A stretch of DNA of 64,000 bases, from the NCBI RefSeq assembly GCF_030913635.1, contig NZ_CP133188.1, forward strand, positions 2,976,001 to 3,040,000, in the 5' to 3' direction. Below, piece after piece: positions 3,727 through 63,978 of the stretch. Origin of the DNA: Sedimentibacter sp. MB35-C1 (lineage in GTDB: Bacteria; Bacillota; Clostridia; Tissierellales; Sedimentibacteraceae). The notes below the pieces were generated by a model. It was not told the origin of the DNA, did no database searches, and saw nothing but the letters and a program-made list of their open reading frames with translations. The position numbers and the translations under genes were made by a program. Every line of letters starts with the position of its first letter. The stretch's first letter is position 1.

Positions 3727-3787
3727 AAAAAAAATCTTTCATTCCTATAAACACATTTGAATTCAACTGTGCTTATAGGGACGAAAG
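3727..3787 (-). terminator. T-box regulated intrinsic terminator
   Basis: On the minus strand CTTTCGTCCCTATAAGCACA pairs, with a few mismatches, with TGTGTTTATAGGAATGAAAG, followed by ATTTTTTTTA. The left arm begins directly after the T-box, so formation of the antiterminator would block it. Confidence 0.9.
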
Positions 3788-4018
3788 ATTCCGCGGTACC
3801 ACCCTTATTATGATATAAATATCATCACTTCAAAGTCTAACAACTTCTAACTCTGTAACGTGAGTTCACGCATCCGTCTACTCGGTTCCCCTTTGAACAG
3901 ACATGCTCAACAGTGAATATTACATATTTCTTCCGCTACCGGTTCACACCATCACCGACTCTCTGTAAACGACTAAAATATCTTTCTCTGCTTCAACGCA
4001 TATAATATTTTTTTGATA
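3727..4018 (-). ncRNA. T-box riboswitch leader
   Basis: On the minus strand the 14-base T-box AGGGTGGTACCGCG lies at 3805-3792. Upstream is a Stem I whose base pairs TTGAAgCAGA (3996-3987) with TCTGTTCAA, and whose tip carries AGAGAGTCGGTGATGG, as in class I T-boxes. An intrinsic terminator (3727-3787) overlaps the T-box 3' part, giving the normal antiterminator/terminator switch. A promoter sits just upstream. The leader ends 68 bases before the YkvI-type carrier gene. The likely specifier is UUC (Phe) in AATATTCACTG, but the specifier loop was folded by eye, so the amino acid is uncertain. Confidence 0.93.
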
Positions 4019-7766: not shown

Positions 7767-8729
7767 ATGAAAATAGTTGTTTTAGATGGATATACCACAA
7801 ACCCGGGAGACTTGTCCTGGGATGAAATAAAAAGAATTGGTGATGCAGACATATATGACAGGACACCTGTGGATCTCACAGCCGAAAGAATAGGATCGGC
7901 TGAAATTGTTCTTACAAACAAATCTCCTGTTTCAAGAGAAACTATAGAAAAATGCGGAAACATTAAATATATTGGTGTTCTTGCAACGGGCTATAATATT
8001 GTAGATGTAGATGCTGCTACAGAAAATAATATTGTTGTTACAAACATACCTTCTTACGGAACAGCGGCAGTAGCACAATTTACTATTGCGTTATTGCTTG
8101 AAATATGCCACCATATAGGCGAGCATAACAGAGCAGTCATGAACGGAGACTGGACAGCAAGCAATGACTGGAGCTTCTGGAACTATCGCCTTACAGAACT
8201 GGAAGGTAAAGTAATGGGAATTATAGGATACGGACGAATAGGCCAAAAAACAGGTCAGATCGCACAGGCGCTCGGTATGAAAATACTGGCAAATGCCAAT
8301 CACCCTGATCCTTCGTTGGAAAATGAAAATTGTAAATATGTTGACTTTAAAACATTGGTAAGAGAATCTGATGTTGTGGCACTTCACTGCCCGCTTACCC
8401 CTTCTACACATGGAATCATAAACAAGGATACTATTGCAAAAATGAAGGATGGCGTAATTATAATTAATACGTCAAGAGGTCCTCTGATTGTTGAAGAAGA
8501 TCTAAGAGATGCCTTAAACAGCGGAAAAGTAGCTGCTGCAGCATGCGATGTCGTTTCTGCTGAACCAATAAAAAACGATAATCCGCTGCTGACGGCTAAA
8601 AATATTATCTTAACACCTCACATTGCATGGGCACCAATCGAATCAAGAAGAAGGCTGATGGACTTAGCTGTAAAAAACTTGAGCAAATTTATTGACGGAA
8701 ATCCTATTAACGTGGTGAACCGACAATAA
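7767..8729 (+). CDS. D-2-hydroxyacid dehydrogenase (glycerate dehydrogenase type)
   Basis: A 320-residue D-isomer-specific dehydrogenase. It shows YIGVLATGYNIVD in the substrate site, GIIGYGRIGQKTG as the Rossmann loop, the catalytic Arg in INTSRGPLIVEE, an Asp in CDVVSAEP at the usual loop before the conserved Glu, and the His in TPHIAWAP. The HIAWAP ending is typical of HprA-like glycerate/hydroxypyruvate dehydrogenases. It differs from the family copy at 4720-5688, so the two are not a recent duplication. It is followed after 87 bases by a YkvI-family carrier on the same strand, likely one transcript from the promoter at 7711. Substrate unknown; a 2-oxoacid from amino acid breakdown is possible. 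Confidence 0.9.
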   Translation: MKIVVLDGYTTNPGDLSWDEIKRIGDADIYDRTPVDLTAERIGSAEIVLTNKSPVSRETIEKCGNIKYIGVLATGYNIVDVDAATENNIVVTNIPSYGTAAVAQFTIALLLEICHHIGEHNRAVMNGDWTASNDWSFWNYRLTELEGKVMGIIGYGRIGQKTGQIAQALGMKILANANHPDPSLENENCKYVDFKTLVRESDVVALHCPLTPSTHGIINKDTIAKMKDGVIIINTSRGPLIVEEDLRDALNSGKVAAAACDVVSAEPIKNDNPLLTAKNIILTPHIAWAPIESRRRLMDLAVKNLSKFIDGNPINVVNRQ

Positions 8730-8816
8730 TGCATAGGAAATATCTTATTAAAATGAATGTAATATAATACATGTTCTCTAATACAATATCTATATAGATT
8801 GAAAGGATGTGTTGCG

Positions 8817-9875
8817 GTGAACAGAAAAGGTGTATCCCCATCAAAGGTTGCAGCCACATATATCGGAACTGTTGTTGGCGCCGGCTTTGCAACCGGCCAG
8901 GAAATACTTCAATTCTTTACTAGATTTGGAGCATTGGGAATCTTCGGACTTGCATCTGCCACAATAATGTTCATTATATTCGGATATATCATAATGAGTC
9001 TGGGAAGAAAACTTAATGCACAATCTCATCTGGAAATAGTAAGGCACATAGGTGGGGGAAAATTAGGAACCATTATGGACTTCATAATTACATTCTTTCT
9101 TTTTGGATCATTTTCTGCAATGATAGCCGGCACCGGAGCTTTATTTGCACAACAGTTTAATATGCCTGCTTTGTGGGGAAATATTTTGATGTCAGTACTT
9201 ACTGCTGCAACAGTGTTAACAGGAATAAACGGTGTTATTAATTCAATAAGTTTTGTTGTGCCGTTTTTGCTTGCAGCTGTCATCGGCACAAGTATATTTT
9301 CTATCTTAGAATCTCCTCCCGACTTGGCAGCTTCAGTCCCTTTATTTGCAGATAACAACCTTATAAGCAATTGGGCTTTATCATCTGTGTTGTATGTTTC
9401 ATATAACATAATTCTATCTGTAGCCGTCCTAGGCTCTCTAGGGCATGCAGCTATAGATGAAAAGGCTGTGAAAAAAGGGGCTGTTCTTGGCGGTCTAGGG
9501 CTCGGCATAGGAGCTGCCATGATATATTTGTCTTTGATAGGAAATATTGCAGAAGCATCTTCCCTCGAAGTACCCATGGTTTACATTTCAGGTAAAATGG
9601 GTAATATAGCTCAAACGTGCTATGCAATAGTATTAATAGCCGAAATTTATACTACCGCAGTCGGCTCACTATATGGATTTGTATCCCGAATAACCGACAT
9701 AAAGGAATTTTCATCCGGCAATATTATAATTATCTTAATAATTACCATAGCTGCATTACTTGCAAGCCAGTTCGGATTTTCAAACCTTGTGAAGTTTTTA
9801 TATCCTTTAATCGGATATGTTGGAATTATGCTGTTATTGTGTCTTATTGCAATAAAGTTTCGAGGGAAAGTTTAA
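8817..9875 (+). CDS. YkvI-family membrane carrier
   Basis: A hydrophobic protein of 352 residues with about ten membrane segments. The first segment reads TYIGTVVGAGFATGQEI, the YkvI family motif; the family is APC-like with unsettled substrate. I chose the GTG at 8817 because GAAAGGA lies about eight bases before it; a TTG at 8799 is in frame but has no ribosome site. It follows the dehydrogenase gene on the same strand, mirroring the pairing of the other YkvI gene (2496-3659) with hydroxyacid oxidase genes. It overlaps no gene; the next gene converges with only eight bases between, without a visible hairpin. Confidence 0.85.
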   Translation: MNRKGVSPSKVAATYIGTVVGAGFATGQEILQFFTRFGALGIFGLASATIMFIIFGYIIMSLGRKLNAQSHLEIVRHIGGGKLGTIMDFIITFFLFGSFSAMIAGTGALFAQQFNMPALWGNILMSVLTAATVLTGINGVINSISFVVPFLLAAVIGTSIFSILESPPDLAASVPLFADNNLISNWALSSVLYVSYNIILSVAVLGSLGHAAIDEKAVKKGAVLGGLGLGIGAAMIYLSLIGNIAEASSLEVPMVYISGKMGNIAQTCYAIVLIAEIYTTAVGSLYGFVSRITDIKEFSSGNIIIILIITIAALLASQFGFSNLVKFLYPLIGYVGIMLLLCLIAIKFRGKV

Positions 9876-41669: not shown

Positions 41670-42818
41670 CTAATATATCTGATTAGTGTTAATATTTTCA
41701 AGTGCATCAGTGCTTTCCACAACTTTTATGCCTTCGGACACAGCAATTTCGTACAGAGCTTTATTTTTTTTATTTATTTCACCATATTTTTTCAAACAGT
41801 TGATTACCGTGTCACAGGATTTCATACGGCGCAGGGCACTATGGAAGACATCATCTCCGATAGGCTCAAAGCTTTTTTCAAAAAATACTTCGCTTGCCAA
41901 ATCACACGCCAGTTGATAATCAATATCGTTTTCGTGAAGTATACCTGTTATAAAAGGTATTCTCTTTTTTTGCAGTGCGCGGTATTCCCCAATCCCTGTT
42001 CCGCCCCCTGCTATTACAAATATTTTTGGCTCCCCCTTTGACCTCTCCATCTCGAAACTGCCAAACAAAGGATTATAGCTTCCGTTAGTCAATTCGTAAA
42101 GTTCACTTATAAGGTCCTTTTGGAATATTTCTCGGGGAGTGCCTAAGTGGGTAATATACTCTCCCTTTACACACATCACTAAATCTGATACCTTTTGAGC
42201 CATATCCAGCTCGTGGAGGGACATGATGACTGTTATATTGCGTTCTTCTGCTAAGGTTCTTAAAATGTTAAGAAGCTCAAGCTCATAATGTATGTCTAAA
42301 AAAGAAGTTGGCTCATCCAAAACTATTATTTCAGGTTCCTGGCAAATTGCTCTTGCAATCAGTATTCTCTGACGCTGTCCATCACTGATTTCATTGAAAT
42401 CTCTATCTCGCAATTCCCATGCATTCACAAGATCCATAGCCTTTCGAATTTCGATATTATCCTGTTCCGAGAGTATGCCAAGCATTCCAGTATATGGGTA
42501 CCGCCCTGTTGCGACCACGTCTTTGCAGGTCATAAGCTCCGTTTTAAGCTTTTCTGTCAACACGACAGCTAATAGATAGGACATTTCTTTGTTACTCATA
42601 GTATCTATTGATTTATTGTCAATATAGACTGTTCCGTATATACTGTTTAGATGTTTTGTTATGCTTTTTAGAATGGTGGATTTGCCTGAGCCGTTAGGAC
42701 CGATCAAAGTCAGTACCTGCCCCTTTTTTAAACGTATTGCAATATCTTTTATCATAGGCTTACCGTTATAGCCTACCGTCAGCTGCTTTGTGCTGAAAAA
42801 GTATTCCGTAGTCATCAT
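41670..42818 (-). CDS. BtuD/FecE-type ABC ATPase with extra C-terminal domain
   Basis: A 382-residue protein. Residues 1-255 are an ABC ATPase of the iron/cobalamin importer class: Walker A LIGPNGSGKSTILKS, signature EISDGQRQRILIARAI, Walker B IIVLDEPTSFLD, switch His in MSLHELDMA. The family usually ends near 260; here about 115 more residues follow, with FVIAGGGTGIGEYRALQKK, GILHENDIDYQLA and SCDTVINCLKKYGEINKK, which look like a small alpha/beta Rossmann-like domain of unknown role. It overlaps the permease gene by four bases and is the last gene of the operon under the cobalamin riboswitch at 47165-47345. Confidence 0.9.
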   Translation of the reverse strand: MMTTEYFFSTKQLTVGYNGKPMIKDIAIRLKKGQVLTLIGPNGSGKSTILKSITKHLNSIYGTVYIDNKSIDTMSNKEMSYLLAVVLTEKLKTELMTCKDVVATGRYPYTGMLGILSEQDNIEIRKAMDLVNAWELRDRDFNEISDGQRQRILIARAICQEPEIIVLDEPTSFLDIHYELELLNILRTLAEERNITVIMSLHELDMAQKVSDLVMCVKGEYITHLGTPREIFQKDLISELYELTNGSYNPLFGSFEMERSKGEPKIFVIAGGGTGIGEYRALQKKRIPFITGILHENDIDYQLACDLASEVFFEKSFEPIGDDVFHSALRRMKSCDTVINCLKKYGEINKKNKALYEIAVSEGIKVVESTDALENINTNQIY

Positions 42819-43840
42819 TGTACTCTCTTTCTTAACATAATGTAAATTACAATAGGAACCCCAAATACTGAGCTCACTGAACTTACGCTTAGTTCCACAG
42901 GAGCAAATAAAACCCTTGCTATAAGATCACAGCCTAAACAGAAAACAGAACCGCCTAAGAAGCACATCGGAGTGACAATAAGCGGCTTTGATGTTTTCAA
43001 AAATGATTTTACCAAATGTGGCACTGCTATACCTACGAATGATATAGGTCCGGCAAAAGCAGTAACGCAAGCGCACAGAAAGCTGGAAAGCAATATAAGC
43101 ATGATGCGAAACAATTTGATGTTTACACCCATATTCTGCGCATAGCTTTCGCCCATCTGATAAGCACCTATAGATTTAGACATAAGAAACACTATTGCCG
43201 AGGCAGTCATTACCACCATAGCCATTACACGTACGTCCCTCCATGAAGTTCCCGAAAAGCTGCCAAGAGACCAATTATGAAGATTTACAATGTTTGCATC
43301 ATTGGCAAATGTAATCATTATGTCTGTGGCCGCAGAGCATATATAGCCAATCATAACGCCGCAGACAATAAGCATTGACGCCTTCTTAACCTTTCTTGAT
43401 ATGATAAGGACAAAACCCATGGAAATCATAGCTCCTGCAAATGCTGCAGTTATAAGGACTCCGGAGCTGACAGCATTGTACTTACTGAGTACTGTTATCA
43501 TCACTATGGCAACCATCATTTTTGAACCGGATGAAATCCCCAGCACATATGGTCCCGCAATAGGATTATTGAAAAACGTCTGGAGCAAGAATCCTGACAG
43601 AGTCAATGCCCCTCCCAGTATAATACCTGCTGCTATTCTTGGTAGTCGAACTTTCCATATTATGCTGTAATCAGCCTCATTTCCGCCACGGTTAAACAAT
43701 ATTTTGATAATATCTTTCACCGAAACGTCTACACTTCCTAACTTAATATTCAATAATAACAAAACCACAAAGAGAACAATTAATATCGTCAGTGTGATAA
43801 AGTACCTTAAATATCTTGCGCTTTTGTTTTCTATTTCCAT
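42815..43840 (-). CDS. BtuC/FecD-type ABC permease
   Basis: A 341-residue FecCD/BtuC-family permease with about nine or ten membrane helices. Typical pieces are LPRIAAGIILGGALTLSG in the second helix, GPYVLGISSGSKM, and FAGPISFVGIAVPHLVK, the last before the loop that meets the ATPase. It forms the channel for the lipoprotein-bound ligand. It overlaps the ATPase gene by four bases and starts 21 bases after the binding protein gene. Ligand by context: a corrinoid or related tetrapyrrole, since the operon is under a cobalamin riboswitch. Confidence 0.93.
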   Translation of the reverse strand: MEIENKSARYLRYFITLTILIVLFVVLLLLNIKLGSVDVSVKDIIKILFNRGGNEADYSIIWKVRLPRIAAGIILGGALTLSGFLLQTFFNNPIAGPYVLGISSGSKMMVAIVMITVLSKYNAVSSGVLITAAFAGAMISMGFVLIISRKVKKASMLIVCGVMIGYICSAATDIMITFANDANIVNLHNWSLGSFSGTSWRDVRVMAMVVMTASAIVFLMSKSIGAYQMGESYAQNMGVNIKLFRIMLILLSSFLCACVTAFAGPISFVGIAVPHLVKSFLKTSKPLIVTPMCFLGGSVFCLGCDLIARVLFAPVELSVSSVSSVFGVPIVIYIMLRKRVQ

Positions 43841-43861
43841 TCATCTTTCCCCGCTGAGTTA

Positions 43862-45007
43862 TTAATGCAGCTTGTACATAAAATTTAATTCTGTCAGATT
43901 TTTGTCGTCATCAGTTAGCATCTGGCGTATATCTGAAATCATCAGGCCAAACTGTGTGGTTTCTTGAAACAGATTTTTGCTTGTACACCATACATTTCCG
44001 TTTTGAACCGCCTTAAAATCTTCCATCAAGCTGTTTTTATTTATCAATTCTTCTACGGAAGAAAGCTCACCGTCTATAGTGCTGTTATATATGATAAAAT
44101 CTGCATCTTTTGCTGTGGAATAAAATTTCTCCATCTCAAGTGTAACTGTGCTGGTGGCGCTTTCTGGATCTCCAAGGTCATCATATATATAATCACCTCC
44201 GGCAAGCTTAATCATTCTTGTTACATAGTCACCTGATTTTCTGGCGATGGCATTGCCTGAAGAGCTTATATAAAAAAACGCTACTGTTTTACCTGTGTTT
44301 TCCTTATTTGAAATTTCCTCCAAATAACTTGCCTGTTCGTTAAAAACCTGTTTTGCAACTGATTCTTTTCCTGTTAGGACTCCGTAAAGTTTTATCCACT
44401 CAGTACGTCCAAGAGGATGAACTTCATAGCTTGACTGGTCTGTAAGCACCGGAATACCCAGCTCTTCCAGTTTTTCTTTAACCTCTGGATTATGGTTTAT
44501 CATTGTGGACTCAACTGCAAGGCTGCAGCCATTTGACATAATTAGCTCATAGTCCGGCGCATTATATTTCCCCGCATATATAATATCGCCGGCTTCCATT
44601 GCTTCCCTTGCATTTTTAATATACCAGTCTTTCGATTTTGTTCCTGATAGGCTGATACTATCTAAGGAATTCAGGGCATCAAACAGACACATGGAAGAAG
44701 TGGCAACGAGATAGATATCCTCAATGGGCCGCCTCAGAACCGCAATGTCTGAATCTATGCCTTCTGGTATATCAATGGACTCCGGTACAACCAGATATCT
44801 GCCACCATCTGATATGGTTATCAGGGCATACCCGCCGTTGTAATAGTCTACACTAAAATTTTCTGCATACTTAAGCTCTAAACTACTTTCTGGCTCCCAT
44901 CCGTTTCCAAGCCCTTTCTTGCTTACATGCTTGCTACCGGTGCATCCTGTAACCAGAAAAATAATCATCACACATATCGTAATGAGTATATTTTGCTTTT
45001 TTATCAT
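43862..45007 (-). CDS. BtuF/FepB-type substrate-binding lipoprotein
   Basis: A 381-residue lipoprotein: signal with lipobox LVTGC, cysteine near residue 22. The mature part has the two-lobe helical-backbone binding fold of cluster A binding proteins, with LAVESTMINHNPEVKEKLEE and LGIPVLTDQSSYEVHPLG, as in iron-complex and cobalamin binders. Part of the N-terminal lobe is more unlike standard BtuF, so I do not give it a symbol. It lies 23 bases after the small NEAT-like gene and just before the permease gene. Probably anchored on the outer face of the membrane and hands ligand to the permease. Confidence 0.88.
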   Translation of the reverse strand: MIKKQNILITICVMIIFLVTGCTGSKHVSKKGLGNGWEPESSLELKYAENFSVDYYNGGYALITISDGGRYLVVPESIDIPEGIDSDIAVLRRPIEDIYLVATSSMCLFDALNSLDSISLSGTKSKDWYIKNAREAMEAGDIIYAGKYNAPDYELIMSNGCSLAVESTMINHNPEVKEKLEELGIPVLTDQSSYEVHPLGRTEWIKLYGVLTGKESVAKQVFNEQASYLEEISNKENTGKTVAFFYISSSGNAIARKSGDYVTRMIKLAGGDYIYDDLGDPESATSTVTLEMEKFYSTAKDADFIIYNSTIDGELSSVEELINKNSLMEDFKAVQNGNVWCTSKNLFQETTQFGLMISDIRQMLTDDDKNLTELNFMYKLH

Positions 45008-45030
45008 TTTTTAATCCTTATTTTTTTTAT

Positions 45031-45585
45031 CTAGTTTTTTTGTTTTGATTTAACAGTAACATATGAAAAGAGCCCTATTATCAAAACTATGATTACAGCT
45101 GCGATGCTGATGTCAAACAGGATTTCAGCTGCCCCACCACCGTTAAAGGGCTTAAGTGTATCGGAATTAAAACGAATCGTGTAGTCAATTTCGTGGGGTA
45201 CGCTCATTGCCACAGTTTGTGCACTTACAGCCATATCCTTGTCCAGTGAAACAGGAATCTCGAATGTGGAATTCCCGTCAGTATTGACGGGATAATAGTA
45301 ATTTCCATCTACCAGCATATACTCGTAATACGGACTGCTCCAAATTACAGAAGCAGTCATAGTACCGCTTGCAACTGTCAACTCTGCCGGAGATTCGATC
45401 TTCACTCTGCCCGACCCTCCAGAGAGAGTTGCTTCCACAGTGTACCTGCCGTCTGCCGGAAAATCCGCAGCAATTGCTTTAACCGGCAATATTGCTATTA
45501 ATAAAAGAATAACCAAAGCTATAATTTTTTTCATCTCATATTTCATTTTACTATAAACAAAACCTAGTGCATTTTTTGCATACAT
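45031..45585 (-). CDS. Membrane-anchored NEAT-like domain protein
   Basis: A protein of up to 184 residues: an N-terminal signal sequence (MKKIIALVILLLIAILPVKA, which might be the true start region near 45534), a domain of about 115 residues, and a C-terminal membrane helix (AEILFDISIAAVIIVLIIGL) with a basic tail. The domain begins DGRYTVEATLSG and holds ELTVASGTMTASVIW, FEIPVSLDKDMAVSA and PHEIDYTIRFN, the pattern of NEAT domains that bind haem. It is clearly related to the C-terminal part of the CbiK-like lipoprotein encoded just upstream. The ATG at 45585 overlaps that gene's stop (TAATG), implying coupled translation. Ligand unknown: haem, a corrinoid or a precursor. Confidence 0.7.
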   Translation of the reverse strand: MYAKNALGFVYSKMKYEMKKIIALVILLLIAILPVKAIAADFPADGRYTVEATLSGGSGRVKIESPAELTVASGTMTASVIWSSPYYEYMLVDGNYYYPVNTDGNSTFEIPVSLDKDMAVSAQTVAMSVPHEIDYTIRFNSDTLKPFNGGGAAEILFDISIAAVIIVLIIGLFSYVTVKSKQKN

Positions 45586-46952
45586 TATTCCACTGTCACA
45601 GCTTCTTCTGGTATCATTGAGGATTGAAATACCAGAACCCTATCATACCATGCTTCTTTATTTATACTCCATGCAGCGCAGTTAATATCCTGGTTAAGTG
45701 CTACCACCGGTACTTCATATGTGTACTTACCTTCACTGTCCTCTACATAATAAATACATTTATCATCAGTATCGGCAAGTGCCTCTTCACCGGTACCCAT
45801 GTATAATTTCTCATAACCCGTTCCACTGAGAGTAATTACTGCTGACATTTCACCCTTTGCTACAGTTAGTTGTGCATCAATTATGCGAAACATACTGGAA
45901 CTGGAAGAAACTTCAATCTGATACGTGCCGTCCTTAATCTGGTCACCCTGTAATGTTTGAGCTTTTTCGGCTTCTTCTAAGTCATCCGTATCTTCAGCAG
46001 GCACATTTTCCTCATTAGTACTTTGATCTATGGCTTCACCCAAATGCTTAACAATCATATTCTGAACACCTGTGTACTCACCCATACCTTTAAGCACAGT
46101 CTCAACCTCATATCCTTCTGCTTCAAATGCGCTTTTCCATGAATCTTCTTCATCACCTGCCATATCATTGTTAGCATGATCTCCTGCAACAATCATAAAT
46201 GGTAGCAAGACAACCTTGTTTGCTCCAGATTCTTTAACAAGAGCAATAACATCATCTAAAGATGGAGTTGCTTCCACTGTGCCCATAAAATAATTATCAT
46301 GACCTGCATCGGTAATGTATTGTTGAACCTTTGAATATACAGCATTTGACTCATGTTCTGTTCCGTGACCCATGAACACAATTGCAGTTCCCTCTGTGTC
46401 ATATGATTTTGTCTCTTCAGTTATAACTGAGACAATTTCTTTAAAATCTTCATCTGAGGCAAGCAATTGTTTGCCAACCTTAAAGCTTTCAAATTTGTCC
46501 TTATATGCTGATACTTCGTTGATAATATCATCATACTCAAAACCGTTCATAACATGTGTAGGCTGTATTACAACCTCTTTTACACCATCTGCTACCAAAC
46601 GATCCATTGCTTCTGTTACATTGTCAATTTCTAAACCGTCGCGATCTTTAAGCTTGTCAATGATAATCTGACTTGTAAATGCACGTCGAACCTCATATTC
46701 AGGATAAGCTTCTTGCAACGCTTTCTCAACGCCTCCAATGGATAAGTCACGGTTGTCATTGTAGCTTGTACCAAAACTTACTGCCAGTATAACTTTGGAC
46801 GGGGAATCTTCTGATAGATTTTCAACTGGAGGGTTTTCAGCCAGAGGATTTTCGTCTGCAGCATTTGTTGAATTTGAACATCCTGTTGCCATTATTAGCA
46901 ATAACGACAGTGCCAGTATAAGCGTAAATAATTTTTTAATTTGTTTCTTCAT
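45585..46952 (-). CDS. Surface lipoprotein CbiK-type cobaltochelatase fused to NEAT-like domain
   Basis: A 455-residue lipoprotein: lipobox LIMATGC puts the lipid on Cys near 25. Residues about 50-310 are CbiK-like chelatase with the two active His in VFMGHGTEHESNAVY (about 194) and MIVAGDHANNDMAGDE (about 257), plus AVSFGTSYNDNRD at the start; these match the S. typhimurium CbiK His145 and His207 as I recall. A charged linker (about 310-340) leads to a NEAT-like domain of about 110 residues, starting GDQIKDGTYQIEV. CbiK puts cobalt into sirohydrochlorin; this is normally in the cytoplasm, although exported CbiK forms are known in Desulfovibrio. It is first in the operon after the cobalamin riboswitch and a terminator. 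Confidence 0.88.
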   Translation of the reverse strand: MKKQIKKLFTLILALSLLLIMATGCSNSTNAADENPLAENPPVENLSEDSPSKVILAVSFGTSYNDNRDLSIGGVEKALQEAYPEYEVRRAFTSQIIIDKLKDRDGLEIDNVTEAMDRLVADGVKEVVIQPTHVMNGFEYDDIINEVSAYKDKFESFKVGKQLLASDEDFKEIVSVITEETKSYDTEGTAIVFMGHGTEHESNAVYSKVQQYITDAGHDNYFMGTVEATPSLDDVIALVKESGANKVVLLPFMIVAGDHANNDMAGDEEDSWKSAFEAEGYEVETVLKGMGEYTGVQNMIVKHLGEAIDQSTNEENVPAEDTDDLEEAEKAQTLQGDQIKDGTYQIEVSSSSSMFRIIDAQLTVAKGEMSAVITLSGTGYEKLYMGTGEEALADTDDKCIYYVEDSEGKYTYEVPVVALNQDINCAAWSINKEAWYDRVLVFQSSMIPEEAVTVE

Positions 46953-47045
46953 TATTAATACTCCTTTTTAATTGTTTTTATATATTGCTTTATGTCATAT
47001 CCGGTGGATTTTAGAAAAATCCGCCGGCGTTAATAAGACCGAAAC

Positions 47046-47076
47046 TAAAAAACGTCTGCGATTAACTCGCAGACGT
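47046..47076 (-). terminator. Riboswitch-linked terminator
   Basis: Minus strand: ACGTCTGCG, AGTTAAT loop, CGCAGACGT then TTTTTAG. It lies between the cobalamin riboswitch and ATG 46952 and is the likely off-state of transcription control. Confidence 0.88.
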
Positions 47077-47164
47077 AAATAAAACGTGAGACTATAACAT
47101 ATTCATACAAAATGAAATATGTTTGTATTGCATCCATAGCCATGGTAGTCCGCAGGGCTGTACG

Positions 47165-47345
47165 CACTGCACTGTAAGTGCAGCAAGGAAACCGGCAAGT
47201 ATTCTGGCTTATCACCCTGCGTTTACATAGAACGCTATCTTTGACACCTTCCCGGAATAATTTCCAGTGGTATTAGTCAAAGCATCAGTGAATTACAGCA
47301 ACGGTCTTGCGTGGGATTTGCACCCAACTTCCATAACCTGATTCC
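47165..47345 (-). ncRNA. Cobalamin riboswitch
   Basis: On the minus strand the aptamer shows the conserved AAGTTGGGTGCAAATCCCAC and GCAAGACCGTTGCTGTAA, and the B12 box AAGCCAGAATACTTGCC at 47210-47194. The downstream terminator at 47046-47076 is the expression platform. High cobalamin should switch off the chelatase-NEAT-BtuFCD operon. The 480-base gap 46953-47432 is filled mainly by this leader. Confidence 0.95.
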
Positions 47346-47432
47346 TATATTCAATTTAAATCAGTATAGCACCATAAGAAACACTTTGTCAATAATATTT
47401 AGTCATTGCATTGGTGCTTTTTCATAATGTGT

Positions 47433-60595: not shown

Positions 60596-62080
60596 TTATG
60601 ACACGACATTCTTTAAAATTTGCTCTTTATTTGTTTCCGCACGTCTTTTAATAAACCATGCATATCCTATGCACATAACCGCAGCAAGTATAAATGAAGC
60701 AGTGTAGCTTGAAGGATCAAGTCCTACCAGCTCATCCAGCCTTAATCCTATAGGAGCGTGGAATATAAAGCTTAATGTTATAAAAAAGTAAAACATGCCT
60801 GGCAATAATGCGACAAAATAGTTCTTTCCTGTAATATAAAGGTACACTGCAATTGTTCCTAATGCAAATGTAGCAACAAATTGGTTTGTGAACGCAAAGT
60901 ATCTCCACAAAATATTAAATCCCTGAGGGCTTAATTTTGAAATATATAACACCACTGCAGCAGGTACGAACAATGCAGCAGATGTTAAAATTCTGTTTTT
61001 GGGACTCTGCTGATTAATGTTAAACTGTTCAGAAACCATAAGTCTCAGTGATCTGAATGCTGTATCTCCGGATGTAATAGGCAGTACTATAACTCCTACA
61101 ATTGCTATCATACCTCCGATTGAACCCAAGAATTCTTTTGACACCATACCAACTATAAGTGTAGACGCTGTACCAACGTCTGTTCCTCTTCCAAACAATA
61201 CCATTGTTCCTGCTGCCCAACACATAGCTATAAAGCCTTCTACCAGCATCATATTGAAGAATGTCATTCTTCCTTCTTTTTCGGATTTAACTGTTCTGGA
61301 AATTAATGTAGCCTGGGTAGCATGAAATCCTGACATTATTCCGCAGGCAACCGTTATAAAGAACACCGGTATAAACGGAAGACCTTGTGGATGCTGACTG
61401 AACATTCCTGCAAGTGAAAGGTTTGTTAGGTTTGCACCTCCGTCAAGCAAGATTCCTATAAAAATACCTATTGCTGAAACTATAAGGAATCCTCCGAATA
61501 TAGGATATACCCTTCCGATAATTGCATCAATTGGGAACAGTGTAGCAATCAGGTAATAAGCAAATATAGCTCCGTAAACTATCCACACTGTAGGATTGCT
61601 TACTGCTGCTTCCTGACTGAAAACCTGAGTTACAATTAAGTCTCCCGGTGTGTATACAAAAACAACACCAACAAGGAACATCAAAATCCACAAGAAGAAA
61701 TTGTAAAATTTTATAACGTTGTTTCCCAAATATTTTTTGATTAACTTAGGCATTTGTGCTCCGCCGTTTCTCATGGAAATCATGCCTGAAAAATAGTCAT
61801 GCATAGAACCGGCAATAACACAACCGATAGGTATTGTAATAAATGCCACAGGTCCGAACAGAATACCCTGAATAGGTCCGAATATAGGGCCTGTTCCAGC
61901 AATATTCAATAATTCGATTAATGAGTTCTTCCATTTTTTCATTACAACGAAGTCCACTCCGTCAGCTTTAGTAATTGCTGGTGTTTCTCTATCATCAGGT
62001 CCAAATACTTTTTCACAGTATGAACCGTAAAAATAACCACCAACAACAAGAATAATAATTCCGATTAAAAATGTTGTCAT
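60596..62080 (-). CDS. Carbon starvation CstA-family carrier (short form)
   Basis: A 494-residue CstA-family protein with about 14 membrane helices. Typical pieces are GTGPIFGPIQGILFGPVAF, GGAQMPKLIKKYLG, FFITVACGIMSGFHATQATL and ITSGDTAFRSLRLMV. CstA/BtsT relatives import peptides or pyruvate. It is the shorter of two CstA-family genes here (the other is 62365-63978) and clearly not identical, so probably different substrates. The ATG at 62080 follows TAGGAGGAAGT. A hairpin lies between the two genes, so they may be separate transcripts. Confidence 0.9.
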   Translation of the reverse strand: MTTFLIGIIILVVGGYFYGSYCEKVFGPDDRETPAITKADGVDFVVMKKWKNSLIELLNIAGTGPIFGPIQGILFGPVAFITIPIGCVIAGSMHDYFSGMISMRNGGAQMPKLIKKYLGNNVIKFYNFFLWILMFLVGVVFVYTPGDLIVTQVFSQEAAVSNPTVWIVYGAIFAYYLIATLFPIDAIIGRVYPIFGGFLIVSAIGIFIGILLDGGANLTNLSLAGMFSQHPQGLPFIPVFFITVACGIMSGFHATQATLISRTVKSEKEGRMTFFNMMLVEGFIAMCWAAGTMVLFGRGTDVGTASTLIVGMVSKEFLGSIGGMIAIVGVIVLPITSGDTAFRSLRLMVSEQFNINQQSPKNRILTSAALFVPAAVVLYISKLSPQGFNILWRYFAFTNQFVATFALGTIAVYLYITGKNYFVALLPGMFYFFITLSFIFHAPIGLRLDELVGLDPSSYTASFILAAVMCIGYAWFIKRRAETNKEQILKNVVS

Positions 62081-62282
62081 ACTTCCTCCTAAATATGTGT
62101 ATTACATTTCAACCTTTAGTATAATGAAGAAAATTTCAAAAAAATGAAAAGGCTGATTTGTATCTAATACTAACACACATGACAAATTTCGTCAATAATT
62201 TAAATTGCTATTTATTCAAAATTATGTAAAACATTTTCCTGCGCTAAATACTGCCTAAGCAGTGTAATTTAAAGCACTATAA

Positions 62283-62316
62283 TAGGGTGCTGCAGCTATG
62301 ATCTCTGCAACACCCT
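62283..62316 (-). terminator. Hairpin after long CstA gene
   Basis: On the minus strand TAGGGTGTTGCAG pairs with CTGCAGCACCCTA with one G-U pair around an eight-base loop. It stands 48 bases after the stop at 62365; the U run after it is weak. Confidence 0.6.
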
Positions 62317-62364
62317 ATGCATAATAATATTATCTATTAGAATTATTAAAGATAGTTCCTATTT

Positions 62365-63978
62365 TTATTCAGATGTATTTTTTAACTCATCTTTTTTAAA
62401 TACAATTGAGTATCCCTCTTTAGCAAGAACAACCGCAAGTACAAACAGCAGAACAGGGAATATTACCAATATATAATTTCCCGCAGCCAAATTTGACTTA
62501 ATCAACAGAATTAGTGCAGTAAGTGTAACGAACAGCATAAATATCATAGGAATAGTCAGCATATGATAATTCTTGCCTGTTTTTTTGAGCCAAACTGCTA
62601 TAGCAAGCAATGACAAAGCTGCTAAAAGCTGGTTAGCTGATCCGAATATAGGCCAAATCTTAGAATATCCGCCAGCAGCAAGGTATCCGCCTATCAAGAC
62701 AGTTATAGCTGTTGAAACATACATATTTGACAAGACTGATTGTTTTTCGCTTTCAGGGTTATCGAAGAACTCTTGGAATATAAATCTCGCCAATCTCGTA
62801 GCAGTGTCAAGACTTGTTAATGCAAATGCAGATACCGCCAATGCAACGAATGATTTTCCTACTTCAAAAGGAATGCCAAACTTAGACATAAATGTTCCTA
62901 CACCACTTGAAAATACATTTACAGGCCCGCCCTTCAGCAGTTCGGTTAATTCTCCACTGGAAATATATGCAGCTGTAATGAGGGCTATTATAGCTAAAAG
63001 GCCTTCTATCAGCATCGAACCATATCCAATGAGCTTGGTGTCATTTTCATTATTTACCTGCTTGGACGTAGTACCAGAACCAACAAGTGAGTGGAATCCG
63101 GAAATAGCACCGCAGGCAACTATTACGAACAACATAGGGAACATATACTGGTTGCCTACGTAAAATCCGGTAACTGCCGGCAGTTGAATACCAGGTCTGT
63201 ATACAATAAGCCCTACTACAGCACCGGCTATCATAGCATATAACAGGAATGAATTAAGATAATCTCTCGGTTGCAGTAGAATCCATACAGGTGCCACTGA
63301 AGCAGCAAAAATATAAACCATTAAAATTAATATCCAAGTATTAACACTTAACTGCAAAGGGAACAATTGACCTAAATATACACATGTGAAAAGTAGAATA
63401 ACTCCAACAACAGTACCAATTTTCAATGAAAGTCCCTTTCGGTATACAGCATAACCAAATACTAATGCTAAAATTATAAACATTAAGGAAGAAGAAGCTG
63501 CAGCAGGAACAGAAGAAAATGTTGCCGCAACTATATTAGTGAAAGCCGCAACCACCAATATCAATGTAAGCCAGGCAAATATAGAAAATAATTGCATTCC
63601 TCTTTTTCCCATATTTGTGTGTATTACTTCACCTATAGATTTTCCTTTGTGACGAACAGAAGCATACAGTGAGCCAAAATCATGAACTCCTCCTACAAAT
63701 ATGCTTCCAATAACTATCCAAAGAAGTACAGGTACCCATCCAAATATAGCTGCCTGAATAGGACCATTTATAGGCCCAGCGCCTGCTATTGAAGCAAAAT
63801 GATGTCCTAACAATACAGCCGGTTTTGCCGGAACGTAATCTACCCCGTCATTTATTTCGTGTGCCGGTGTTTTTCTTGTTGGATCAACCCCCCATTGTTT
63901 AGCCAGCCAGGCTCCATAAGTCACATAAGCTATTACAAAAACAATAATACCAAGTAAAACTAAAAGCAATGCGTTCAT
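62365..63978 (-). CDS. cstA: Carbon starvation protein CstA
   Basis: A 537-residue CstA with about 16 membrane helices. It has KTPAHEINDGVDYVPAKP, GAGPINGPIQAAIFGWVPV, VRHKGKSIGEVIHTNMG, IVACGAISGFHSLVGSGTT and ALTSLDTATRLARF, all CstA hallmarks. E. coli CstA takes up pyruvate and peptides during starvation. The ATG at 63978 follows AAAAGGAGGTTATT, so the start is complete inside the window. A second, shorter family member is encoded downstream. Confidence 0.93.
   Translation of the reverse strand: MNALLLVLLGIIVFVIAYVTYGAWLAKQWGVDPTRKTPAHEINDGVDYVPAKPAVLLGHHFASIAGAGPINGPIQAAIFGWVPVLLWIVIGSIFVGGVHDFGSLYASVRHKGKSIGEVIHTNMGKRGMQLFSIFAWLTLILVVAAFTNIVAATFSSVPAAASSSLMFIILALVFGYAVYRKGLSLKIGTVVGVILLFTCVYLGQLFPLQLSVNTWILILMVYIFAASVAPVWILLQPRDYLNSFLLYAMIAGAVVGLIVYRPGIQLPAVTGFYVGNQYMFPMLFVIVACGAISGFHSLVGSGTTSKQVNNENDTKLIGYGSMLIEGLLAIIALITAAYISSGELTELLKGGPVNVFSSGVGTFMSKFGIPFEVGKSFVALAVSAFALTSLDTATRLARFIFQEFFDNPESEKQSVLSNMYVSTAITVLIGGYLAAGGYSKIWPIFGSANQLLAALSLLAIAVWLKKTGKNYHMLTIPMIFMLFVTLTALILLIKSNLAAGNYILVIFPVLLFVLAVVLAKEGYSIVFKKDELKNTSE

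Follow-up and report, generated by a model that had tools for sequence, protein, structure and literature searches.

The 64,000-nucleotide stretch of Sedimentibacter sp. MB35-C1 analysed here (contig NZ_CP133188.1, positions 2,976,001 to 3,040,000; hereafter the window) carries an operon of five genes that lies behind a cobalamin riboswitch and encodes a lipoprotein related to the cobalt chelatase CbiK, two predicted NEAT-fold domains, and an ATP-binding cassette (ABC) importer. From upstream to downstream, the locus (41670-47392) reads as follows.

47363 to 47392, minus strand: promoter-like site (TTGACA, 18 bases, TATACT; 11 of 12 positions), called by consensus match alone
47177 to 47356, minus strand: cobalamin riboswitch aptamer (RF00174, model positions 1-189 of 189)
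47052 to 47076, minus strand: terminator-like hairpin (10 pairs, 6 of them G-C, then a T run)
45585 to 46952, minus strand: lipoprotein CbiK chelatase with a C-terminal NEAT-fold domain, 455 amino acids (Pfam CbiK)
45588 to 45977, minus strand: NEATc, the NEAT-fold domain of the CbiK protein, residues 326-455 (AlphaFold2 model, PDB fold match)
45031 to 45585, minus strand: NEATs, a membrane-anchored NEAT-fold protein, 184 amino acids (domain modelled at 45136-45471)
43862 to 45007, minus strand: substrate-binding lipoprotein, 381 amino acids (PF01497 Peripla_BP_2, 5.8e-33; lipobox by eye)
42815 to 43840, minus strand: FecCD-type ABC permease, 341 amino acids (PF01032, 2.3e-79)
41670 to 42818, minus strand: ABC ATPase, 382 amino acids (PF00005, 4.6e-28)
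about 41670 to 42077, minus strand: extra C-terminal domain of the ATPase, without a convincing Pfam or PDB relative

All five genes were confirmed on the minus strand, neighbours overlapping by up to 4 bases or standing up to 23 bases apart, and a scan of the window recognised the aptamer at 67.6 bits (gathering score 31.5; E value 1.6e-14). This aptamer and the tight packing of the genes behind it uphold the claim of an earlier note on this DNA that a cobalamin riboswitch precedes the whole operon. The terminator-like hairpin, which lies between the riboswitch and the first gene, is likely the off-switch, and the promoter-like site lies directly upstream of the aptamer. As classes, neither promoter-like sites (28 observed there, 20.8 +/- 5.7 expected) nor terminator-like sites (3 observed, 3.9 expected) exceeded chance.

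Judging from its sequence, the chelatase looks active and exported. Residues 53 to 308 of the 455-residue protein match Pfam CbiK (PF06180) with an E value of 1.2e-86 (290.7 bits, against a cut-off of 26.2), and they are preceded by a leader reading ...LLIMATGC, in which a lipobox was judged by eye. Its best solved relative is Salmonella CbiK (1qgo; 6.2e-54), followed by Porphyromonas gingivalis FetB (9b86), with Desulfovibrio CbiK (2xvx; 4.4e-38) also matched; the fourth match, a CbiX, reaches an E value of 0.3. In the alignment, E139, H196, and H259 of the window protein correspond to E89, H145, and H207 of the Salmonella enzyme, in which we take the Glu to be the third metal-site residue. 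This set of His, His, and Glu is retained in all 107 aligned CbiK domains, three PDB chains among them. The His pair of the metal site is described in the available text of PMC7689651, and that of PMC6593275 lists CbiK among the enzymes of the pathway. The equivalog model for sirohydrochlorin cobaltochelatase (NF047852) gave 252.8 bits, below its cut-off of 400, and we therefore do not assign an exact substrate.

Relatives were named as loci for the best 80 of at least 583, found in at least 597 stretches; being best matches, they are not a census, and two of them (L092 and L095) are near-copies. A strongly hydrophobic stretch lies ahead of the CbiK fold in 77 of the 80, and a rough lipobox pattern is present in 66. 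The three exceptions are L049 and L053, which are leaderless, and L103, in which the frame is cut by the end of the contig. Our scripts took the first possible start codon and counted as a leader any hydrophobic stretch preceding the CbiK fold, which in a few loci may sit upstream of the true start. The earlier note had held that loss of the active His in homologues, or a cytoplasmic chelatase, would speak against its account; no such loss was seen in the 107 domains, and a cytoplasmic location is made unlikely for 77 of the 80 relatives, by leader sequence only.

On the evidence of structural models and family alignments, both small domains have the NEAT fold, whose known ligands are flat tetrapyrroles, haem for example. 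AlphaFold2 modelled NEATs and NEATc with predicted local distance difference test scores of 93.8 and 93.1, and the top PDB match of both models in Foldseek was IsdX1 (NEATs, E value 2.0e-5 and template modelling score 0.79; NEATc, 1.9e-4 and 0.60). The matches also include Hbp2, IsdH, and IsdA, and those of NEATc are weaker than 0.001 past the first few. The window copies of both domains gave no match to PF05031 at E<=1 in Pfam, and the NEATc profile found no NEAT among PDB sequences. A chance or mis-called domain was considered because single-sequence searches of Pfam and the PDB gave none, and it was ruled out by the fold searches and by the family alignments, in which 38 of 56 NEATs copies (best 1.3e-6) and 30 of 55 NEATc copies (best 5e-5) match PF05031 at E<=1. 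The NEATs protein also has a leader and a C-terminal hydrophobic anchor, both recognised by eye. These data support the earlier calls of a lipoprotein CbiK joined to a NEAT-like domain and of a second, membrane-anchored NEAT-like protein.

The remaining three genes encode a type II importer, with a FecCD permease and a Peripla_BP_2 binding protein. This much of the importer called BtuFCD in the earlier note stood, and the label itself is not established, because the score with the curated BtuC model was 192.7 bits, below its cut-off of 334. The extra domain of the ATPase also occurs in relatives (36 aligned), and in L057, L058, and L060 a cysteine-rich tail replaces it, as judged by eye; a SirC-like Rossmann domain was considered for it and found unsupported, the best PDB match (E value 0.011) being a designed repeat protein. 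An importer of this kind might take cobinamide or cobalamin, with CbiK and the NEAT domains serving only as surface binders or release aids. Corrinoid import is commonly placed under B12 riboswitches, and both the ATPase and the permease match curated B12 transporter models, far below the cut-offs. A mere binder, however, needs none of the three metal-site residues that every aligned CbiK keeps, NEAT domains are known for binding flat tetrapyrroles such as haem, and in relatives the module is joined to cbi operons, where it occupies the place of the missing chelatase. We regard uptake of a late corrinoid as rather unlikely.

The same gene order was found many times in other Clostridia. On the same strand and within 7 kb, NEATc is present in 72 of the 80 loci, NEATs in 67, the binding protein in 71, the permease in 66, and the ATPase in 64, several of the loci ending early. 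Neighbouring steps are also fused, CbiK to NEAT in 21 frames and NEAT to the binding protein in nine. The hosts include Lachnospiraceae, Oscillospiraceae and Ruminococcus, Christensenellaceae, Propionibacteriaceae, and Collinsella; Treponema and other spirochaetes carry an exported CbiK without NEAT. Of the 21 CbiK loci scanned, 16 (all but L063, L100, L116, L044, and L057) have a cobalamin riboswitch ahead of CbiK or of the operon, and the examined flank holds at least one cbi gene in 38 of the 80 loci and three or more in 26. In L057, L069, and L109, the series CbiK-NEAT-binding protein-permease-ATPase continues directly into cbiD or cbiA, and in L044 cbiD comes after CbiK-NEAT. Within the genus of the window, L026 has the operon and a cbi cluster diverging from each other, and cbiL comes after the exported CbiK in L027.

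This setting bears on a second explanation, haem or iron acquisition in the manner of Isd and of what has been put forward for Iht, in which the NEAT domains would take haem, the CbiK-like protein would remove or exchange its metal, and the importer would take the iron or the porphyrin. NEAT domains are known haem binders, FetB, a haem-binding protein, is among the closest solved relatives of the chelatase, and the best NCBIfam match of the binding protein is IsdE, at 24.3 bits far below the cut-off of 298.65. Set against these likenesses are the cobalamin riboswitch of the window and of those 16 scanned loci, the cbi neighbours in the 38 loci, and the lack of any recognised haem-breakdown gene among the five genes of the operon, and we consider haem or iron acquisition quite improbable.

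Several loci depart from the common layout. In L028 (G018:C13, 5543-9707), from the same genus as the window, a NEAT-binding protein-permease-ATPase operon stands without a cobalamin riboswitch at the gathering score, and the exported CbiK is on another contig. L107 has a 980-amino-acid frame in which five NEAT-type domains are fused to a binding protein, beside a frame with two further NEATc domains and a tandem CbiK. L125 (G086:C36, 2807-10374) carries a second, leaderless CbiK next to a radical-S-adenosylmethionine-like gene and near a 1250-amino-acid gene (CobN/ChlH-like by eye) and two AAA-type genes. In L040, the operon lies on an 8.6-kb contig of a bin labelled Alistipes (Bacteroidota) and groups with Ruminococcus copies in the tree; this contig is possibly mis-binned or transferred.

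The strongest clue to function lies outside the window, in a cbi cluster unaccompanied by SUMT, HemC, a strong SirC, or any other CbiK or CbiX. The genome (one contig, 3.62 Mb, rated 98% complete) has a single CbiK and no CbiX match other than the CbiK protein itself. At about 1161-1173 kb lies a cbi cluster read as D, F, J, ET, A, G, C, L, and H, with another importer after it; CbiD and the methylases were named from searches and the remainder by reading, and there is no chelatase in this cluster. The enzymes that act on the cobalt form of sirohydrochlorin are kept. CbiD is present, no SUMT scored above its cut-off, and no HemC was found in the genome, which is the combination by which we recognised a salvager. 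Lacking SUMT, HemC, and a strong SirC, the genome cannot, by these searches, provide for the making of sirohydrochlorin.

These observations lead us to propose, with about an even chance of being right, that the operon encodes a surface module, repressed by B12, that salvages a late tetrapyrrole: a precursor would be captured outside, loaded with cobalt, and imported as the product. When B12 is low, the riboswitch would permit reading of the operon. The NEAT-fold domains would then capture outside the membrane a tetrapyrrole derived from other cells, most likely sirohydrochlorin or siroheme, and the lipoprotein CbiK would insert cobalt, or exchange iron for cobalt, outside the membrane. The binding lipoprotein would receive cobalt-sirohydrochlorin through the NEAT protein, the FecCD-type importer would bring it in, and the ordinary enzymes of anaerobic corrin synthesis, with CbiL using the imported product, would complete the ring inside. 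We infer the cargo, the insertion of cobalt outside, and the order of the relay; the cargo follows from the role of SUMT, which makes precorrin-2: a cell that lacks this enzyme has to take in a compound of this stage or a later one. At L039, the genome G074 has a riboswitched operon that holds ATPase, NEATc, NEATs, and binding protein but no CbiK; G074 lacks all three early genes and has a short-frame CbiK elsewhere. The G074 layout agrees with a cargo that the chelatase itself uses or makes, and it also shows that cobalt need not be inserted outside.

The early genes were searched for in 80 genomes, a chosen set and not a random one. It comprised 12 genomes at order level with an exported CbiK, 18 at order level taken to have a cytosolic one (8 loci read, 10 judged by open frames of 254-287 amino acids), and those of 50 named loci (L040-L084 by rank, and also L087, L088, L100, L115, and L116, the other 30 being excluded), many of these 50 being metagenome bins of unstated completeness. 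L049 and L053 were counted as cytosolic, PF13241 was counted as SirC only from 85 bits up, and the SUMT of G195, a fragment scoring 183.4 against a cut-off of 185, was counted as absent. CbiD was found in 79 of the 80 (all except G194), and a separate, clear CbiX-like protein in G052, G195, G158, and G169. SUMT, HemC, and a strong SirC were absent together from 38 of the 60 genomes with exported CbiK, including 10 of the 12 order-level ones, which are rated 90-100% complete, and we count this absence in favour of the salvage proposal; in four of the 60 (G018, G169, G173, and G195) SUMT was absent with HemC or SirC present. Evtepia gabavorous KLE1738 (L055, G165), for example, has the operon and CbiD and, in the searches made here, no SUMT, HemC, or strong SirC. 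Among the 20 genomes with only a cytosolic CbiK, 10 lacked all three genes and 10 had SUMT. A second, short-frame CbiK was present in 5 of the 18 SUMT-positive genomes with exported CbiK versus 2 of the 42 SUMT-negative ones.

Parts of this comparison, together with points from the window genome and from FetB, weigh against the salvage proposal. We had at first expected exported CbiK to mark SUMT-less genomes and dropped this idea, since export was not significantly associated with loss of SUMT (present in 18/60 versus 10/20, p 0.11), nor with HemC (p 0.20) or SirC (p 0.29), across the 80 genomes. With SUMT present in those 18 of 60, and 13 of the 18 showing no second short-frame CbiK, an exported CbiK does not go hand in hand with a lost early pathway, and the 10 of 20 cytosolic genomes that lack all three genes imply that cobalt insertion outside is unnecessary for salvage. 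Three genomes with exported CbiK (G158, G169, and G195) have the CbiX-like protein as well. In the window genome, three PF13241 matches score 26-30 bits, above the Pfam cut-off of 22.1, and lie in frames of 459, 301, and 220 amino acids; clear SirC proteins score 85-118 bits, and on these sequence scores we judged the three weak matches not to be SirC. The early genes searched for were SUMT, HemC, and SirC. Finally, FetB has the same kept residues and is reported to act on protoporphyrin, so that the kept residues do not prove the substrate.

Some of the same genomes suggest a third explanation, in which metal-free sirohydrochlorin would be imported and an unrecognised enzyme would insert cobalt inside, the exported CbiK mainly holding the ligand or stripping iron from siroheme. 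The ten genomes without SUMT, HemC, and SirC that have a cytosolic CbiK agree with this, as do L019, L020, and L021, three of those ten, in which CbiK directly adjoins the binding-protein gene, and as does G074, with its riboswitched NEAT importer operon lacking CbiK and its short-frame CbiK elsewhere. The window genome, in contrast, has neither a second CbiK nor a separate CbiX, and its exported enzyme has kept the metal-site residues. We consider import of the metal-free compound distinctly unlikely.

The two leaderless loci bear on the salvage proposal from the side of evolution. In L049 and L053 (around 7884-9176), a leaderless CbiK-NEATc has cbiA, cbiC, cbiD, and cbiF as neighbours and a flank that holds no importer, and both loci sit inside a branch of 11 rows (support 99/97) whose other members are exported. 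Their genomes have SUMT, HemC, and SirC. We read these loci as having lost the leader together with the neighbouring importer, a reversal that we count in favour of salvage by the exported form; they represent one evolutionary event and are therefore only suggestive. The origin of export itself is not settled by the CbiK tree, in which the main exported branch does not include the exported L033 and L038, cytosolic L013 pairs with L038, and FetB, CbiK-P, Salmonella CbiK, and L035 have long branches.

Two further features elsewhere in the window are a T-box leader (3774-4005, minus strand, 126.8 bits) and, at 60596-63978, two adjacent large membrane proteins (494 and 537 amino acids) that by eye resemble CstA-type transporters.

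The module shares features with several known systems. Salmonella CbiK, which shares the His pair and the Glu, has no leader ahead of the matched region (the match begins at residue 3). Desulfovibrio CbiK acts outside the cytoplasm, as we propose for the window protein, in what is presumably its periplasmic form, CbiK-P, and it is distant in the tree, its matched chain carrying no NEAT domain. In the Isd relay, as in the proposed module, surface NEAT-fold domains pass a ligand to a binding lipoprotein and a FecCD importer; the window is set apart from it by a chelatase within the series and by control through a B12 riboswitch. The nearest counterparts are Desulfovibrio CbiK and the Iht system of P. 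gingivalis (IhtB/FetB and IhtC-E), the latter of which the available text of PMC10913741 describes as a receptor, a CbiK-like lipoprotein, a binding protein, a permease, and an ATPase, the last four of which the window shares. The coupling of these parts, unfamiliar to the earlier note in a Gram-positive organism, is widespread and has a described Gram-negative counterpart. Unlike the window, Iht is Gram-negative with an outer-membrane receptor, IhtA, of a type not found among the five window genes; the available description names no NEAT domain in it, and FetB forms a long branch outside the clostridial branch. Iht is interpreted in the accessible sources as serving haem or iron uptake and the making of Mn-porphyrin, not B12: FetB makes Mn-protoporphyrin according to the available text of the review PMC13402209, and IhtB is put forward as a putative ferrochelatase in that of PMC13227078.

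Tetrapyrrole precursor salvagers were defined by Shelton et al., who verified use of 5-aminolevulinic acid in three species (PMC6461909, available text). Like the window genome, these salvagers, mostly Firmicutes, have corrin-ring genes without the early steps, and P. gingivalis is noted there as missing the steps to precorrin-2; uptake in the verified cases is of 5-aminolevulinic acid, and the available part of the paper names no uptake machine or exported chelatase. We recognised no description of a NEAT-linked exported CbiK in the open-licence literature of PubMed Central, as represented mostly by titles and the starts of abstracts.

Overall, what the earlier note observed at this locus is confirmed, and its interpretation is partly supported: surface capture, metal loading, and uptake are in line with the export signal, the kept residues, the NEAT folds, the importer, and the riboswitch, with metal loading outside the membrane being a step that we infer. 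More widely, and with less than even confidence, we suggest that in a wide range of bacteria, most of them from the gut (Clostridia, with some Actinomycetota and Spirochaetota), the step at which cobalt first enters anaerobic B12 synthesis, either by insertion into sirohydrochlorin or by a swap of siroheme iron for cobalt, takes place outside the membrane, that the NEAT relay of Clostridia and Actinomycetota carries a corrin precursor, not haem, and that B12 is completed from a neighbour's half-made tetrapyrrole. Among exported CbiK systems, the module would be new in this specific mechanism. If true, the proposal would supply an uptake route for salvagers that lack everything up to sirohydrochlorin, and one step in the making of B12 would lie on the outer side of the membrane. 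NEAT domains would have a ligand besides haem, and a compound traded within gut communities would be defined.

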